NCBI GenBank assembly: GCA_007122555.1
Contig: SKTL01000152.1
Coordinates: 1-10,466 of the forward strand
Source: Thermomicrobiaceae bacterium
GTDB lineage: Bacteria; Chloroflexota; Chloroflexia; Thermomicrobiales; Thermomicrobiaceae
Direction of reading: 5' to 3'
DNA length: 10,466 nt
The notes beneath the pieces are model-generated. The model was given only the letters and a program-made list of their open reading frames with translations, was not told the origin of the DNA and ran no database searches. Shown one piece after another: positions 2,101-8,207 of the stretch. The first letter of the stretch is position 1. The number at the start of each line of letters is the position of its first letter. A program made the position numbers and the translations under genes.

Positions 2101-3540
2101 GTGAGCGATTACGGCGACCGTCATGCCGTCATCATCGGCGGGGGAATCGCCGGGCTGGCGGCAGCCTGGCGATTGCAAGCGCAGCGCGCCGCGGAGGGAG
2201 CTGACTACCGGATTACGCTGGTTGAGGCGAGCGATCGGCTCGGCGGCAAGCTCTACACCGAGCGGTGCGACGGGTTAACGATCGAATCGGGGCCGGATTC
2301 CTTCCTTTCCTATAAACCGGCCGCCATCCAGCTCGCGCGTGAGCTCGGTATCGAGGACCGGATCATCGGCACGCGCGACACCGGCGACGGGACGTTCATC
2401 TTGCGGGATGGCCGGCTGGAGCCCCTTCCGGAAGGTATCACGATGCTGGTGCCGACGAAGCTGAAGCCGCTTGCGAAGAGCCGTTTGCTCTCTCTGCGCG
2501 GCAAAGCCCGCATGGCTGCCGAGTATCTCGTTCCCGCCAGAGAAGATGACGACGACGAATCGATCGGCTCGTTTATCTCCCGACGTCTCGGGCGAGAAGC
2601 GTTCGAGCATATGGCGCAACCGCTGCTCTCGGGCATCTTTGCCGGTGACGCCGACCAGCTCAGCCTTGCCGCGACGTTTCCCCGGTTACGGGATATCGAG
2701 CGCAAGCACGGCGGACTGGTCCGGGGAATGCTGAACCAGCGCCGGGAAGCGCGCTCCGGAAACAACGCCGCCCCGCAGTCTTCCTATCCGCCGTTTGTCT
2801 CCTTCGCCGGCGGGATGGGCGAGCTCACCGATTCCCTGGTGGAACGGCTGGGTAACGTCGATCTCCGGACCGGGGCGGCCGTTGAACGGATCGAGCAAGC
2901 CGAATCTGGGTACCGGCTGCAGTTGGCTGGCGGGGAGTTCCTCGAGGCGGATGCAGTGCTTCTGGCGACGCCGGCGTATGTTGCGGCGGACCTGCTTGAG
3001 CTTCTCGATGGCGAGATCAGCGCGATGCTGCGGCGCATCCCGTATGTCTCAACGGCGACGATTTCACTCGCGTTTCGGGCATCGGATGTTCAGGGGCTGC
3101 AGGCTGGCCGCGGTTTCGTCATCCCCCATGTTGAAAATCGGGAACTGACGGCTGTGACCTGGGCCTCGAACAAGTTTGATGGCCGCGCGCCGGGAGGAAC
3201 GGCGTTGCTGCGCACATTCGTCGGACGGGCTGGCCGCGAAGGCGCCGTTGACCTCCCGGACGACCAGTTGCTGACGATCGTGCGACGTGAGCTTCAGCAG
3301 ATACTGGGAATTGAGACGGCGCCAATCGTCAGCCGAATCCAGCGCTGGAGACGGGCGATGCCGCAGTACGTTGTGGGACATGTTGATCGGCTGGAGCAGG
3401 TTGATCAGCGTATGCAGCGGCTCCGCGGTCTTGCATTGCTCGGCGCCGCATACCGGGGCGTAGGCATTCCGGACTGCATCGAAAGCGGAAACCGGGCAGC
3501 GGAGAGCGCGCACCAGTATCTTCACCGCAACGTGACATAA
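2101..3540 (+). CDS. hemY: Coproporphyrinogen III / protoporphyrinogen oxidase (HemY, CgoX type)
   Basis: This FAD-dependent oxidase has 479 residues, the normal length for HemY (about 470). It would remove six electrons from coproporphyrinogen III (monoderm pathway) or protoporphyrinogen IX, using oxygen. The N-terminal dinucleotide fold has GGGIAGLAAAWRL (residues 13-25), followed by LVEASDRLGGKLYT (40-53) and GPDSFL (64-69). FAGGMGELTDSL (about 235-246) and the C-terminal GAAYRGVGIPDCIESGNRAAE (about 447-470, second FAD contact) are also typical. It starts with GTG 3 bases after the hemH stop, which implies translational coupling; the ribosome binding site (GAGG in the hemH end) is weak. 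Because it sits beside a CpfC-type ferrochelatase, coproporphyrinogen is the more likely substrate; this is inference from context. No clear terminator follows the stop. Confidence 0.93.
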   Translation: MSDYGDRHAVIIGGGIAGLAAAWRLQAQRAAEGADYRITLVEASDRLGGKLYTERCDGLTIESGPDSFLSYKPAAIQLARELGIEDRIIGTRDTGDGTFILRDGRLEPLPEGITMLVPTKLKPLAKSRLLSLRGKARMAAEYLVPAREDDDDESIGSFISRRLGREAFEHMAQPLLSGIFAGDADQLSLAATFPRLRDIERKHGGLVRGMLNQRREARSGNNAAPQSSYPPFVSFAGGMGELTDSLVERLGNVDLRTGAAVERIEQAESGYRLQLAGGEFLEADAVLLATPAYVAADLLELLDGEISAMLRRIPYVSTATISLAFRASDVQGLQAGRGFVIPHVENRELTAVTWASNKFDGRAPGGTALLRTFVGRAGREGAVDLPDDQLLTIVRRELQQILGIETAPIVSRIQRWRRAMPQYVVGHVDRLEQVDQRMQRLRGLALLGAAYRGVGIPDCIESGNRAAESAHQYLHRNVT

Positions 3541-3679
3541 CGCATAGCTCGAAACCTGACCTTGTTGCGAGAATCAGCGACCGTTCGACTTGTCTGATAC
3601 CGTTGTTCCGGTGCGGTTAACGACATGTCGGCGCGTCGTATGCCGAATGCCGCTTGCTGTGTGAACACGCCATGTGGAC

Positions 3680-3707
3680 TTGACTGTAGGCGCATGAGGT
3701 GTTAAGT
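3680..3707 (+). promoter_or_regulatory. Candidate sigma-70-type promoter of the betaine cassette
   Basis: TTGACT (3680-3685) and TTAAGT (3702-3707) are 16 bases apart and match the -35 and -10 consensus at five and four positions. The -10 lies inside the inverted repeat GTTAA-gtgt-TTAAC (3701-3714). Transcription would begin near 3714 and give a leader of about 240 bases. A rival -10 is TATTAT at 3816-3821, which lacks a good -35. Confidence 0.4.
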
Positions 3708-3719
3708 GTTTAACGCACC
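3698..3719. promoter_or_regulatory. Inverted repeat over the -10 region, operator candidate
   Basis: GGT-GTTAA-gtgt-TTAAC-gc-ACC is an imperfect dyad: a perfect 5-bp core (3701-3705 with 3710-3714) and a 3-bp outer arm (3698-3700 with 3717-3719). Its place over the promoter candidate suggests repressor binding. No regulator gene is in the window. Confidence 0.35.
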
Positions 3720-3720
3720 G

Positions 3721-3755
3721 CTGGTCGCAAGTTGATCGCACAGGTGAGCGACCAG
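3721..3755 (+). other. 8-bp perfect hairpin in the leader region
   Basis: CTGGTCGC (3721-3728) and GCGACCAG (3748-3755) pair perfectly across a 19-base loop. No U-tract follows, so it is not a normal terminator. If the promoter at 3680 is used, this hairpin opens the transcript. Confidence 0.45.
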
Positions 3756-3863
3756 TCAGGTCGAAATACACGAGTGTCTGTCGCGCCCGGATTTCGGGAA
3801 CTGGACGCACTCGGCTATTATCAAGGGTTCTGAACATACCCGCTTTGTTGAGTCTTTATCTAT

Positions 3864-3944
3864 CTGGATTCGCGGCGTTTGCCGCGTCGTCTCAGACAAG
3901 CAGACGGATCCAGCGCACGGCTTTCTGTACGGACTTTTAGAAGG
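3864..3944 (+). ncRNA. Three-way-junction leader RNA with possible Shine-Dalgarno sequestration
   Basis: Three stems nest without gaps. P1 is CTGGAT (3864-3869) with ATCCAG (3908-3913). P2 is CGCGGC (3871-3876) with GCCGCG (3881-3886), loop GTTT. P3 is CGTCT (3888-3892) with AGACG (3902-3906), extendable by a U-G pair (3887/3907), loop CAGACAAGC. Only one base, 3870, is left unpaired in the junction. Seven bases downstream, CTTTCT (3921-3926) can pair with AGAAGG (3939-3944), the Shine-Dalgarno of the next gene. The same element, as GCTTTCTG (3920-3927), is complementary to the P3 loop (3893-3901) except for one bulged C. These are pairings read by eye; ligand and function are unknown, and I recognise no known riboswitch class. 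Confidence 0.45.
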
Positions 3945-3951
3945 GAAGAAG

Positions 3952-4788
3952 ATGATGGCCAGGGACGTGATCTCAGAGAATGTCTCCACCACACAAGCGT
4001 ATTATGATGGCCCCGCAAGCGAAATCTACAAGAACATCTGGGGCGACAACCTTCACATGGGAATTCCGCCGCGAGAGGGCGCCAGCCTTCAGGAGGCGAT
4101 GGATAACACCAACACCATCATGGCCGAAGCCGCGAACCTGACGCCGGACGTCCGGGTAATTGACCTCGGTTGCGGCTACGGGTCGACCGCTCGGTACATT
4201 GCGTCCAAGTATGGCTGCGAAGTGATCGGCCAGACGATCTCCAACGAGGAGCTCAAGCTGGCGAGAGAACGCGCGGGGACTTCCGACGCGCGTCATCTGC
4301 TCACTTTCGAGTGGGGCGACTTCCATAATATCGAATATCCCGACGCTTCGTTCGACGTTGTCTGGAGCCAGGAAGCGTTCCTGCACGGCGCGGACAAGAA
4401 CAAAATCCTCAGCGAGTGCTACCGCGTCCTCAAGCCTGGTGGCACGCTTATCTTCAGCGATATTCTGGTTCGCCGAGATACCCCGCGGGCGGATCGGGAA
4501 CGCATCTATGCACGGCTGAGCACCGTCGACATCTGGGATTTCCCCGACTACGAAGAAGGCCTCAAACAGCATGGGTTTGACGTGCTGAAGGCCGAAGATC
4601 ATTCCCAGTATGTCGCTCCCACCTATGGCGGTGTGGTCAGCAAGGTGCGCGAGAACCGCTCGGAGCTGATCGAACGAATCGGCGACGAGACGGTTGACAA
4701 GACGATCGCTGCGCTCGACTTCTGGGTTGAGTCAGCGAACGCCGGCAAGGTTGGCTGGGGTATTTTCCTGGCGAAAAAGCCGAGCTAG
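3952..4788 (+). CDS. Sarcosine/dimethylglycine N-methyltransferase
   Basis: This SAM-dependent class I methyltransferase has 278 residues and matches the SDMT family, which methylates sarcosine to dimethylglycine and then to glycine betaine in the cytoplasm. The N-terminus TTQAYYDGPASEIYKNIWG is characteristic. The SAM loop is VIDLGCGYGSTARYIA (69-84), SQEAFLHGADK (139-149) forms the region near the substrate, LKPGGTLIFSD (160-170) is the late motif, and the protein ends in GWGIFLAKKP. It is followed after 105-111 bases by the glycine/sarcosine enzyme, so the pair covers the full route from glycine to betaine. Two adjacent ATGs (3952, 3955) are possible; the Shine-Dalgarno AAGGGA at 3941-3946 fits both and slightly favours 3955 (277 residues). 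Translation may be controlled by the structured leader. Distinction from related sterol or tocopherol methyltransferases rests on these motifs and on the neighbour. Confidence 0.88.
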   Translation: MMARDVISENVSTTQAYYDGPASEIYKNIWGDNLHMGIPPREGASLQEAMDNTNTIMAEAANLTPDVRVIDLGCGYGSTARYIASKYGCEVIGQTISNEELKLARERAGTSDARHLLTFEWGDFHNIEYPDASFDVVWSQEAFLHGADKNKILSECYRVLKPGGTLIFSDILVRRDTPRADRERIYARLSTVDIWDFPDYEEGLKQHGFDVLKAEDHSQYVAPTYGGVVSKVRENRSELIERIGDETVDKTIAALDFWVESANAGKVGWGIFLAKKPS

Positions 4789-4875: not shown

Positions 4876-4899
4876 TCCGTTTTGTGAAAGGGTTTGTCC

Positions 4900-5673
4900 A
4901 TGAACGCCTCACCAAGGTCCGAAGACTTGACACGAGATCTCTATCAGGATGAGTACACGCCTGATTTCGTAGATCGATGGGACGAACTCATCAACTGGAA
5001 GGCTCGCTGGGAGTCCGAAGGTGGCTTCTTCCAGGATATTCTGCGGAACTACGAGGCGGCCAGGGTGCTCGACGCAGCCTGCGGTACCGGTTTCCACACC
5101 GTAATGCTGGCGCGTGACGGCTTCGACGTTACTGGTGCTGACGGCAGCGCCGAAATGGTGGGCAAGGCTCGCGAGAATGCCCAGCGGGCCGGCATCCCTG
5201 AGCTTCCGGTTGTTGAAGCCGAATGGACAACGATGTCCGAATCGTTCCCGAACCAGACGTTCGATGCGATTATCGTCCTGGGCAACGCCTTCACGCACCT
5301 CTTTGATGAGGGTGATCGCAAGAAGGCGCTGAAGCAGTTCTACTCGATGCTGAGCGACGACGGGGTTGTCATCATCGACCATCGCAACTACGACAAGATT
5401 CTGGACAAGGATTACGACAACAAGCACCAGCATTACTATCTGGGCGAGAACGTCAACGCCTTTCCGGAAGAAATCACGAGCGAATATGTCCGGATGAAGT
5501 ACGAGTACACCGATGGCTCGTCCTATCACCTGACGATGTGCCCGATCCGCCAGAACTACGTGACGGAGCTGCTGCGCGATGCCGGCTTCCAGAACATCCG
5601 GCGGTACGGCGATTTTGAAGCCGAATATAGCTTCTATGACCCGGACTTCATCATCCAGGTCGGAACGAAGTAA
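4900..5673 (+). CDS. Glycine/sarcosine N-methyltransferase
   Basis: The protein has 257 residues and belongs to the GSMT family, which methylates glycine to sarcosine and on to dimethylglycine with SAM. Signatures are [23 protein letters not shown] (22-44), the SAM loop [15 protein letters not shown] (56-70), [10 protein letters not shown] (77-86), and the substrate-side [11 protein letters not shown] (158-168), where the arginine corresponds to the carboxylate-binding arginine of this family. The C-terminal RYGDFEAEY...DPDFIIQV block is also typical. The start is ATG 4900, preceded by GAAAGGG at 4886-4892 with 7 bases spacing. A TTG at 4894 in the same frame is too close to that site to be used. 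It works with the upstream SDMT: the two together make glycine betaine, an osmoprotectant. Family assignment is strong; activity on sarcosine in addition to glycine is known of the family, not shown here. Confidence 0.92.
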
Positions 5674-5767: not shown

Positions 5768-6997
5768 ATGAGTTTGAGTTTTGCACAATCACCGTCATTT
5801 CTGTTCACGTCTGAGTCTGTGACGGAAGGCCATCCGGACAAGGTCTGTGACCAGGTTTCGGATGCCGTGCTCGATGAAATCATGAAGCACGACCCGGAAG
5901 CCCGTGTTGCCTGCGAGACCGTTGCGGGGAACGATGTGGTGATCGTGGTCGGTGAGATCACCACGAAGCACAAATTTGATGTTGAAAAAATCGTCCGTAA
6001 CACCTTGCGCAAGATCGGCTACACCAACCCGGATCACGGGATTGATGCTGACAACTGCCGGGTTGACGTCCATCTGCACGCGCAGTCGCCGGACATCAAC
6101 GCTGGCGTCAGTGAGTCGTTCGAGACGCGCTCCAACGGCCACGTGACTGAAGAAGACGTCGCCAAGATCGGCGCCGGCGACCAGGGTATGATGGTCGGGT
6201 TCGCCTGTGACGAGACGCCGGAGCTGATGCCGCTGACGATGGCGCTGTCGCACCGGTTGACCCGCCAGCTGGCGAAGGTCCGTCACGACGGCGTGCTGGA
6301 CTACCTCGGCCCGGACGGCAAGTCGCAGGTGACCGTTGAGTATGCCTATGGCAAGCCGAAGCGGATTCACACCATCATCCTGAGCACGCAGCACAGCCCG
6401 GATGTCGCCGATGAGAAGATGTTTGCGGACCTCCGCAAGCATGTCATCGATCCGGTAATCCCATCCGAGTTGCTCGATGATGACACGATTTTCTACTACA
6501 ACCCGAGCGGTCGCTTCGTTGTTGGCGGCCCGACGGGCGACGCTGGTCTGACCGGCCGGAAGATCCTGGTTGATACCTACGGCGGCGTCGCCCGCCACGG
6601 CGGCGGCGCATTCTCCGGTAAGGATTCGACCAAGGTCGACCGCACCGGCGCCTATGGCGCTCGCTACGTCGCCAAGAACATCGTGGCCGCCGGCCTGGCC
6701 GAGCGCGCCGAACTGCAGGTCTCCTACGCGATCGGCGTCTCCAGCCCGATCAGTGTGAACATCGAGACGTTCGGCACGGAGAAGGTCAGCCCGGAGCTGA
6801 TCAACAAGCTGGTCGAGGAACACTTCGACCTGCGACCGGGCGCGTTGATCCGCGATCTGAACCTGCGCAGCCCGATCTTCCAGGACACCGCGGCATATGG
6901 TCACTTCGGCCGCCCGGACCTTGATCTGCCGTGGGAGCGCACCGACAAGGCGGATCTCCTGCGCGAGGCTGCACAGGCTCAAGCGGTGGCCCGGTAG
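5768..6997 (+). CDS. metK: S-adenosylmethionine synthetase
   Basis: MetK joins methionine and ATP to SAM in the cytoplasm, releasing phosphate and pyrophosphate. The 409-residue protein has all family marks: [21 protein letters not shown] (16-36) with the catalytic His22, [16 protein letters not shown] (135-150), and the glycine-rich phosphate loop [15 protein letters not shown] (278-292), followed by [12 protein letters not shown] (300-311). Length is slightly above the usual 380-400. ATG 5768 is chosen because the conserved region begins soon after it and AAGGGG lies at 5751-5756; a TTG at 5759 is too close to that site, and the open frame further upstream overlaps the GSMT gene. Lying 94 bases after the two SAM-consuming methyltransferases, it probably supplies their cofactor. 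It may be the only metK or a second, cassette-specific copy; this window cannot tell. Confidence 0.97.
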
Positions 6998-7001
6998 CCA
7001 G

Positions 7002-7092
7002 TTGTCATTCCCGCCATCCGGCGGGACCCGAAGACCCCGTCTTCGACAATTCCCGGATGCTGATTACCCCTCTCCCGGTGCCGGGAGAGGGG
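7002..7092. repeat. Cluster of three perfect hairpins, REP-like intergenic repeat
   Basis: Three perfect inverted repeats follow one another after metK: TCCCGCC/GGCGGGA (7009-7015, 7020-7026), CGAAGAC/GTCTTCG (7029-7035, 7039-7045, loop CCC) and CCCCTCTCCCGG/CCGGGAGAGGGG (7067-7078, 7081-7092). TTGTC (7002-7006) and GACAA (7045-7049) can close around the first two. The segment ATTCCCG is repeated at 7007-7013 and 7049-7055. Such CCCTCTCCC...GGGAGAGGG blocks are common dispersed intergenic elements in GC-rich genomes; it may also weaken transcription after metK. Confidence 0.6.
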
Positions 7093-7212: not shown

Positions 7213-8121
7213 GTGGCTTCGATAGCACTCGAGCTCGTACCGGCGGCGAAAACGAACGGGCAGGAAACGACGCTCAAAGAGGGGCGCACCGTTCGCGATA
7301 AGCTGGAAAAAGCCGGTATTCTGAATGATATCAATACAATAATGATCCCCCAGGTCATCTCGGAGGATGAGTTCCGCCCGGTTGAACTGGAAGCGAAGCT
7401 TGACCCGATCGACACCAAGCGCTACCTGAGCCAGGTGCTGCCGGTCGACTATATCGCCACGCAGGTGACGGTGTACACGCCGATGGAGCAGCTCCGAGAG
7501 CGTGCTCTTCAGCTGCAACGCGAGGGCATCAACCGGGTGATCTTTGTCGGCGCTCCGCGCGTCGAGAACGAGCGCATGGTCGGACCAACCCCGCCGGAGG
7601 CGATCAGCGGGCTGCGGGACATCATTCCGTCCTGCGGAGTGATTCTGATTCCCACGCGTGAGTCAGAGGTTGATCGGTTCGCGGCCAAGGTAAATGCCGG
7701 GGCTACCTTCGGGAACTCCCAGCTGTTGTTTAGCGACTACATGGGGACATTCCTGGGCGATCTCGCGCAGAAGACCGAAGAGCGTCCCGAGATCATGCTC
7801 ACCTTTGGCTATGTGCCGAAGGCCGAAACCAAGGTCGGGCTGTTCGAATGGATGATCTGGGATGACCAGCCGGTCGTTCGCGATGAGATCGAGTTCGTGA
7901 AGAACATTGCCGACAAGCCCTTTGCCGAGAAGAAGGAAAAGCTGGTCGATCTCTACAAGCGTGTCATCGACGGCGTTCATCGACATGACTTTCCGATCGG
8001 AGTGCAGTTCTCGATCCCGTACGGCATTTCCGGCCCGGCGTTCGAGACATTCTCCGAGATGCTGGAAGTCTGGTCGCCGCAGCGTCAACCTGTCGGCGCT
8101 GGCAGTCGAGGTGATGACTAG
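7213..8121 (+). CDS. Methylenetetrahydrofolate reductase-like protein, non-canonical type
   Basis: The protein has 302 residues with the pattern of a single TIM barrel. It lacks the usual MetF wording but resembles, from memory, the non-canonical mycobacterial MTHFR (Rv2172c type). Shared blocks are IALELVP (4-10), ATQVTVYTP (82-90), INRVIFVGAPR (106-116), GVILIPTRESEVDRFAAKVNAGATFGNSQLLFSDY (142-176), PEIMLTFGYVPKAE (192-205), DLYKRVIDGV (246-255) and PAFETFSEMLEVWSP (275-289). The expected reaction is 5,10-methylene- to 5-methyl-tetrahydrofolate, which feeds methionine synthase. As the last gene of the betaine cassette, behind metK, this role makes sense. The start is GTG 7213 with GAGGGAG at 7204-7210 rather close; no other in-frame start is near. 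A strong terminator follows. Alternative: another flavin-free folate or methyl-transfer barrel protein of the same superfamily. Confidence 0.72.
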   Translation: MASIALELVPAAKTNGQETTLKEGRTVRDKLEKAGILNDINTIMIPQVISEDEFRPVELEAKLDPIDTKRYLSQVLPVDYIATQVTVYTPMEQLRERALQLQREGINRVIFVGAPRVENERMVGPTPPEAISGLRDIIPSCGVILIPTRESEVDRFAAKVNAGATFGNSQLLFSDYMGTFLGDLAQKTEERPEIMLTFGYVPKAETKVGLFEWMIWDDQPVVRDEIEFVKNIADKPFAEKKEKLVDLYKRVIDGVHRHDFPIGVQFSIPYGISGPAFETFSEMLEVWSPQRQPVGAGSRGDD

Positions 8122-8172: not shown

Positions 8173-8207
8173 AAGCCCCCGGACAACGACGTCCGGGGGT
8201 TTCTCCA
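8173..8207 (+). terminator. Rho-independent terminator after the MTHFR-like gene
   Basis: AAGCCCCCGGAC (8173-8184) pairs with GTCCGGGGGTTT (8191-8202) over 12 bp including one G-U, with loop AACGAC, followed by a short pyrimidine-rich tail (TTTCTCC). It ends the betaine cassette 52 bases after the stop codon. In the opposite direction the tail is poor, so it serves mainly the plus strand. Confidence 0.85.

Follow-up and report, generated by a model that had tools for sequence, protein, structure and literature searches.

A conserved leader with a covarying hairpin precedes a putative betaine operon in one genus of Thermomicrobiaceae

Comparative genomics has reportedly yielded operon-specific candidate structured leaders, each confined to a single operon of a single clade and containing covarying hairpins. 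The leader described here, from a genome of the Thermomicrobiaceae, resembles these candidates in that covarying hairpins lie in a non-coding leader of one operon and one clade; it differs from them in being represented by just five genomes, or about four independent sequences because two of the five rows of the alignment are nearly identical, and in that no class is named for it. The SAM-I riboswitch (RF00162) is comparable as a cis leader ahead of genes of the methionine/SAM cycle, but it has no match at the leaders of this operon, either in the window (the whole stretch of 10,466 nucleotides that was analysed) or in the operon loci of four relatives (L031-L034). The Na+-I riboswitch (DUF1646 motif) is described in passages of PMC9337991 as occasionally associated with osmoprotectant genes, and for this reason its logic would suit a betaine operon. 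The associated genes named in the best 12 of 14 places of that article are dapB, ablA, and eam, with no GSMT or SDMT seen among them there; Na+-I also differs from the present case in having no match in the window or in the leaders of the relatives. Among the literature matches listed, taken by their titles and abstract openings, no article dealt with an RNA leader ahead of GSMT/SDMT genes.

On the forward strand of the window, a non-coding gap of 411 bases (3541-3951) separates the end of hemE, hemH, and hemY from the SDMT-like, GSMT-like, metK, and MTHFR genes downstream. Further upstream, the ferrochelatase encoded at 721-2097 is extended at its N terminus by about 130 residues with a very high Asp/Glu content, and its Pfam domain starts at residue 133. 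Genes were named from NCBIfam and Pfam profiles and from the nearest solved structures. The gene that begins with the ATG at 3952 (3952-4788) resembles sarcosine/dimethylglycine N-methyltransferase (SDMT; NF041675, 176.8 bits for a cut-off of 550; PDB 2o57, E 9.5e-31) and the next one (4894-5673) glycine/sarcosine N-methyltransferase (GSMT; NF051855, 306.1 bits for a cut-off of 350; PDB 5gwx, E 6.4e-78); both are called only "-like" because they score under the cut-offs of the curated models. They are followed on the same strand by the operon copy of metK, encoding S-adenosylmethionine synthetase (5768-6997; TIGR01034, 540.7 bits, above cut-off), and by a methylenetetrahydrofolate reductase gene of the PF19345 type (MTHFR; 7213-8121, 273.6 bits). 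These profile and structure matches support the naming of the four genes in the preliminary description of this DNA. A strong inverted repeat (CCCCTCTCCCGG/CCGGGAGAGGGG, 7067-7092) lies between metK and the MTHFR gene, and a strong hairpin 3' of the latter (8173-8202) is a possible operon terminator, with a T run of only three bases that is paired inside the predicted stem.

The comparison set consists of five genomes of one genus, i.e., the window genome and its relatives G001-G004, and in all five SDMT, GSMT, and metK lie downstream of the leader (MTHFR falls outside this count). GSMT was found in none of the other 16 family genomes searched and, at E values up to 1e-40, in 4 of 400 sampled genomes of the phylum, three of which belong to this genus. 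The fourth (G406, locus L081) is a member of the same class, and its GSMT, unlike that of this genus, scores above the curated cut-off (486.6 bits).

The preliminary description had placed a structured leader ahead of the betaine genes and had looked to homologous leaders for covarying base pairs. In our alignment of the five leaders such covariation is clear for one hairpin and weaker for its neighbours; separate MAFFT alignments of the HA and HB regions misplaced G004, and these, together with the H0 alignment, were excluded from the counts. The best-supported helix is HA (CTGGTCGC/GCGACCAG, 3721-3755, forward strand, like all features of the leader), in which 33 of the 35 cells of its seven pairs are paired and four of the seven pairs have changed on both sides. 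No shuffle out of 500 reached its covariation score or its percentage of paired cells, 19 reached its count of both-side changes, 86 reached its number of pair types, and versions of the helix slid along the alignment were paired in 11-52% of cells. A scan for helices of at least five contiguous pairs in all five sequences, spanning no more than 60 and with at least two both-side changes, returned HA as the one qualifying helix of the leader, and any such helix appeared in 3 of 1000 column-shuffled leaders. The same scan found none in 1658 control columns counted from the SDMT start codon (four helices there had a single both-side change), a region that is an imperfect yardstick because it is better conserved than the leader (mean column identity 0.87 versus 0.77).

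Neither HB nor H0 passes the scan that HA passes. HB is a 43-nucleotide hairpin (3771-3813) with an outer stem CGAGTG/CACTCG and an inner stem CCCG/CGGG; 28 of the 30 cells of the outer stem are paired and the MAFFT alignment shows a both-side change at one pair, the middle stem is paired in just 66.7% of cells, and G004 forms the outer stem in another register (CGTGAG/CTCACG). RNAalifold also calls a weak hairpin, HC (GGGT/ACCC, 3825-3841), of which one of the four pairs is broken in two of the five genomes and none has changed on both sides. Taken jointly, H0, HA, and HB are paired in 90.8% of 120 cells, versus 28.8-44.0% for slid versions, and include six pairs changed on both sides, a count reached by 4 of 500 shuffles; their pair types were reached by 252 of 500 and are no better than chance. 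By folding energy none of the five leaders stands out (z from -0.41 to -1.36 for the whole leader and from -0.66 to -2.13 for the first 160 nucleotides); positions 3700-3960 of the window have z -2.02.

Upstream of HA lies a highly conserved block that runs from the TTGAC at 3680 to 3719 and includes the inverted repeat H0. Its start, TTGAC(T/G)GTA...CAT(A/G/C)AG (3680-3697), is conserved in all five genomes, and conservation drops off upstream of it; this segment may be either the -35 region of a promoter or the 5' part of a leader RNA. A scan of 3200-4300 returned no sigma-70 site, which says little because shuffles average merely 0.5 sites. H0 itself (3698-3719) is an imperfect inverted repeat, GGTGTTAA/TTAA..CACC, whose arms are offset by one base and whose pairs belong to the RNAalifold consensus. 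It could be an RNA hairpin or a DNA operator. The RNA reading is slightly favoured because variation mostly keeps the pairing, as G-U; one cell is broken, in the window, and no pair has changed on both sides.

The leader appears to be specific to this operon. A covariance model of H0-HA-HB (R1) gave one match per genome, at the operon leader, in all five genomes of the genus, and in 56 other genomes of the order a single weak match (G008, E 0.0035), which lies inside an open reading frame; weak relatives of the leader may be missed because the search used the stricter Infernal filters and scored a limited number of candidates per genome. Pattern searches of the genus for additional copies, whether of H0 or of the leader, found none; they are not exhaustive because each pattern missed some of the five variants, one giving no match at all, one fitting the window only, and another, with up to 3 mismatches, recovering the leaders of three of the five genomes. 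A short match to the leader on another contig of the window genome falls in what is, by eye, an apparent RNA polymerase gene and was taken as chance, as were the other short matches from that search. Leader conservation, covariation in HA, and occurrence ahead of this operon alone in the genomes searched are the demonstrated part of this work. Comparison with Rfam, which had been proposed as a check, gave no convincing family: for the window, Rfam 15 (4227 models, E up to 5) returned two sub-cut-off matches, both far from the leader, and for the operon loci of the four relatives (E up to 1) two matches, both below cut-off. One match, to Ysr100, is antisense over the leader of L033 (E 0.19, 28.5 bits for a cut-off of 47) and was regarded as chance. 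Positions 3200-4300 of the window contain no site resembling an intrinsic terminator (shuffles average 0.7).

The structure originally proposed lies further downstream. It is a three-way junction at 3864-3913, built of P1 (3864-3869/3908-3913), P2 (3871-3876/3881-3886), and P3 (3888-3892/3902-3906), and all 17 base pairs given for these helices are present in the window and are Watson-Crick. Junctions with helices of at least five Watson-Crick pairs and linkers of at most one nucleotide appeared in none of 1000 dinucleotide shuffles of the leader, and in 97 of 1000 when G-U was permitted, in a test that is post hoc and concerns a structure picked by eye. The junction is the minimum free energy (MFE) fold of 3864-3913 taken alone and of 3847-3933. 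The MFE of the 120-nucleotide region (3841-3960) is another fold, a single hairpin extending P2, and the energy of this region is ordinary (z -0.13; 77 of 200 shuffles are equally or more stable). Forcing the junction costs 0.6 kcal/mol in 3841-3960 and in the 261-nucleotide context 3700-3960, and 1.7 kcal/mol in 3860-3930, with pair probabilities of P1 and P3 of about 0.23-0.39 in the first two contexts and about 0.10-0.12 in the third. P2 alone has a probability near 1 in every context. The junction is thus predicted to be a minority conformation in wider contexts.

The relatives, which have the same operon, do not share this fold. The same scan, with or without G-U, found no comparable junction in any of the four; P1 keeps its pairing in 12 of their 24 cells, with the pair 3867-3910 broken in all four, and P1 and P3 jointly in 23 of 40. 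Mapped on the alignment, P1 alone is paired in 60% of 30 cells (reached by 98 of 500 shuffles), with a covariation score reached by 27 of 500. The whole junction does better, being paired in 76.5% of 81 cells (21 of 500 shuffles). It has six pairs with both-side changes (42 of 500), and its covariation score is matched by only 6 of 500 shuffles and exceeds that of every slid version. These counts run against our reading, but we do not take them as support because the structure was derived from a single row of the alignment (a bias about which the tool itself warns), because the invariant core of P2 supplies 25 of the 62 paired cells, and because no relative has six consecutive P1 pairs. On the scan of the relatives, the breakage of P1, the shuffle counts of P1 alone, and the minority folding, we rejected this junction as a conserved aptamer; it would be a local, non-conserved fold of the window genome alone.

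Within the junction, P2 stands apart. Its core, GCGGC-GTTT-GCCGC (3872-3885), has five inner pairs that are paired in 25 of 25 cells and identical in all five genomes, with a GATT loop in the relatives. Further exact copies of the relatives' 14-base form, two per genome, occur in G002 and in G003, but not in G001, G004, or the window genome (G000). P2 could be a DNA operator. The P3 hairpin (3888-3906) is replaced at the same place in the relatives by hairpins of unrelated sequence, of 8 bp in G001 and 10 bp in G004, and by an interrupted stem in G002 and G003. These hairpins are individually weak (shuffle P 0.127 in the window, 0.054 in G001, and 0.019 in G004), and by the same shuffle rule none qualifies in G002 or G003.

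The Shine-Dalgarno sequence (SD) AGAAGG (3939-3944) can be read directly and is kept in all five genomes, and it and the candidate anti-Shine-Dalgarno CTTTCT (3921-3926) have the letters first reported. The preliminary description held that CTTTCT pairs either with the SD or with the loop of P3, each pairing excluding the other; both are possible on paper in the window and neither is supported by the relatives. The CTTTCT/SD helix is paired in 26 of 30 cells (all six pairs in three genomes, five in G004, and three in G001), has no covarying pair in the five-leader alignment, and is hardly better paired in register than when slid by three columns (86.7% versus 83.3%). For the helix of the P3 loop with CTTTCT, 25 of 40 cells are paired (17 of the 32 that belong to the relatives), and no both-side change appears in that alignment. 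The five leaders share no conserved pair of alternative helices by which the SD would be covered in one state and exposed in the other, and for lack of covariation in either helix we rejected the competing SD pairings as a conserved switch. The RNAalifold consensus pairs the SD with the pyrimidine tract 5' of P2 instead, and we regard both SD pairings as loose pyrimidine-purine matches. Covariation in homologous leaders was thus found in HA and, more weakly, in HB, and was not seen in the anti-SD and loop helices.

The signal to which such a leader might respond is probably not SAM, one of the ligands initially suggested. SAM is unlikely because a second metK lies outside the operon in four of the five genomes (G001-G004; L086-L089) and because SAM-I riboswitches are used elsewhere in three of the five. 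The draft of the window genome (84.63% complete) has the operon copy of metK only. In all four relatives the second metK adjoins ahcY, an assignment backed by a profile in G001 and made by eye in the other three (G002-G004). SAM-I precedes metX in G001, G003, and G004 (metX assigned by profile in G001 and G004 and by eye in G003), and it precedes ahcY-metK only in G001, among the three genomes in which the upstream stretch is covered; the contig of G004 stops inside ahcY. The operon metK would serve specifically to provide the methyl groups of betaine, and a SAM-dependent off-switch before the operon would then work against that role. Osmotic or ionic conditions would be a likelier input than SAM. 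The isolate codes suggest a soda-lake habitat.

We favour, at an even chance, the reading of the 411-base gap as a genus-specific, structured 5' cis-regulatory leader of the SDMT-GSMT-metK-MTHFR operon. Its parts would be the hairpins HA and HB, the inverted repeat H0, the invariant short hairpin P2, and a terminal pyrimidine tract able to cover the SD. The leader would be transcribed and control the operon in cis, acting on ribosome access through a loose pairing of the SD with a pyrimidine tract (CTTTCT at 3921-3926 or the tract 5' of P2), and its input would be a trans-acting factor or the osmotic or ionic conditions of the cell. The main competitor is control at the level of transcription, in which 3680-3719 would be a core promoter with H0 as its operator, P2 perhaps a second operator, and an RNA that folds and senses nothing. 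We consider this possible, though doubtful: the sharp upstream end of conservation at TTGAC, the near-palindromic H0 with no second copy found, and the inner stem of P2, which never varies, as expected of a protein site, all fit it, but there is no recognisable -10 hexamer, the sigma-70 scan is empty (weak evidence), the arms of H0 are shifted by one base against each other, with RNA pairing preserved through G-U at most of the changed positions, and the covariation of HA is left unexplained.

A new riboswitch class sensing a metabolite or an ion, with H0-HA-HB as the aptamer and P2, P3, and the SD as a freely changing expression platform, is rather unlikely. It would account for a conserved block followed by covarying stems, for the fast-changing hairpins between that block and the SD, and for the presence of a single-pathway biosynthetic operon downstream; it is at odds with a distribution in one genus with one copy per genome, with the few conserved unpaired bases within HA or HB, and with the lack of an expression platform common to the relatives. 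Absence of any regulation, i.e., an ordinary non-coding spacer with chance helices, would agree with the few sequences, the weak folding z-scores, and the helices first described not being conserved, and yet is very improbable, since the covariation of HA stands against two nulls and the conserved block does not look coding (only in the window does the SDMT frame stay open far ahead of its start). The translational riboswitch as first proposed, with the P3 loop and the SD competing for CTTTCT, has on its side a complete and tight all-Watson-Crick junction close to the MFE and a covariation score that few shuffles reach. Its absence from the relatives, the poor retention of P1 and P3, the ease with which shuffles equal the pairing of P1, and the lack of covariation in both competing helices mean that, as a conserved mechanism, it does badly by the very covariation standard set for it, and it is the reading we find hardest to credit. 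From the sequences compared, a genus-specific structured leader spanning about 3680-3951 is the better-supported object: covariation backs a leader structure ahead of the betaine operon, and places it in HA and, more weakly, HB, upstream of the segment (3864-3951) where it was first drawn. This leader is probably not a SAM riboswitch.

The relevant target for this operon has accordingly shifted to 3680-3952, beyond 3864-3951 alone. It seems improbable to us that H0-HA-HB forms the aptamer of a riboswitch not yet described and restricted to this clade, or else an RNA thermometer or ion sensor; if true, it would couple de novo betaine synthesis, with its own SAM synthetase, to the osmotic state, and would do so independently of the SAM-I circuit found before the housekeeping ahcY-metK in one genome. 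If the leader regulates the operon, it would show how, in bacteria of this genus, a costly osmolyte pathway equipped with its own metK and MTHFR is uncoupled from SAM repression.
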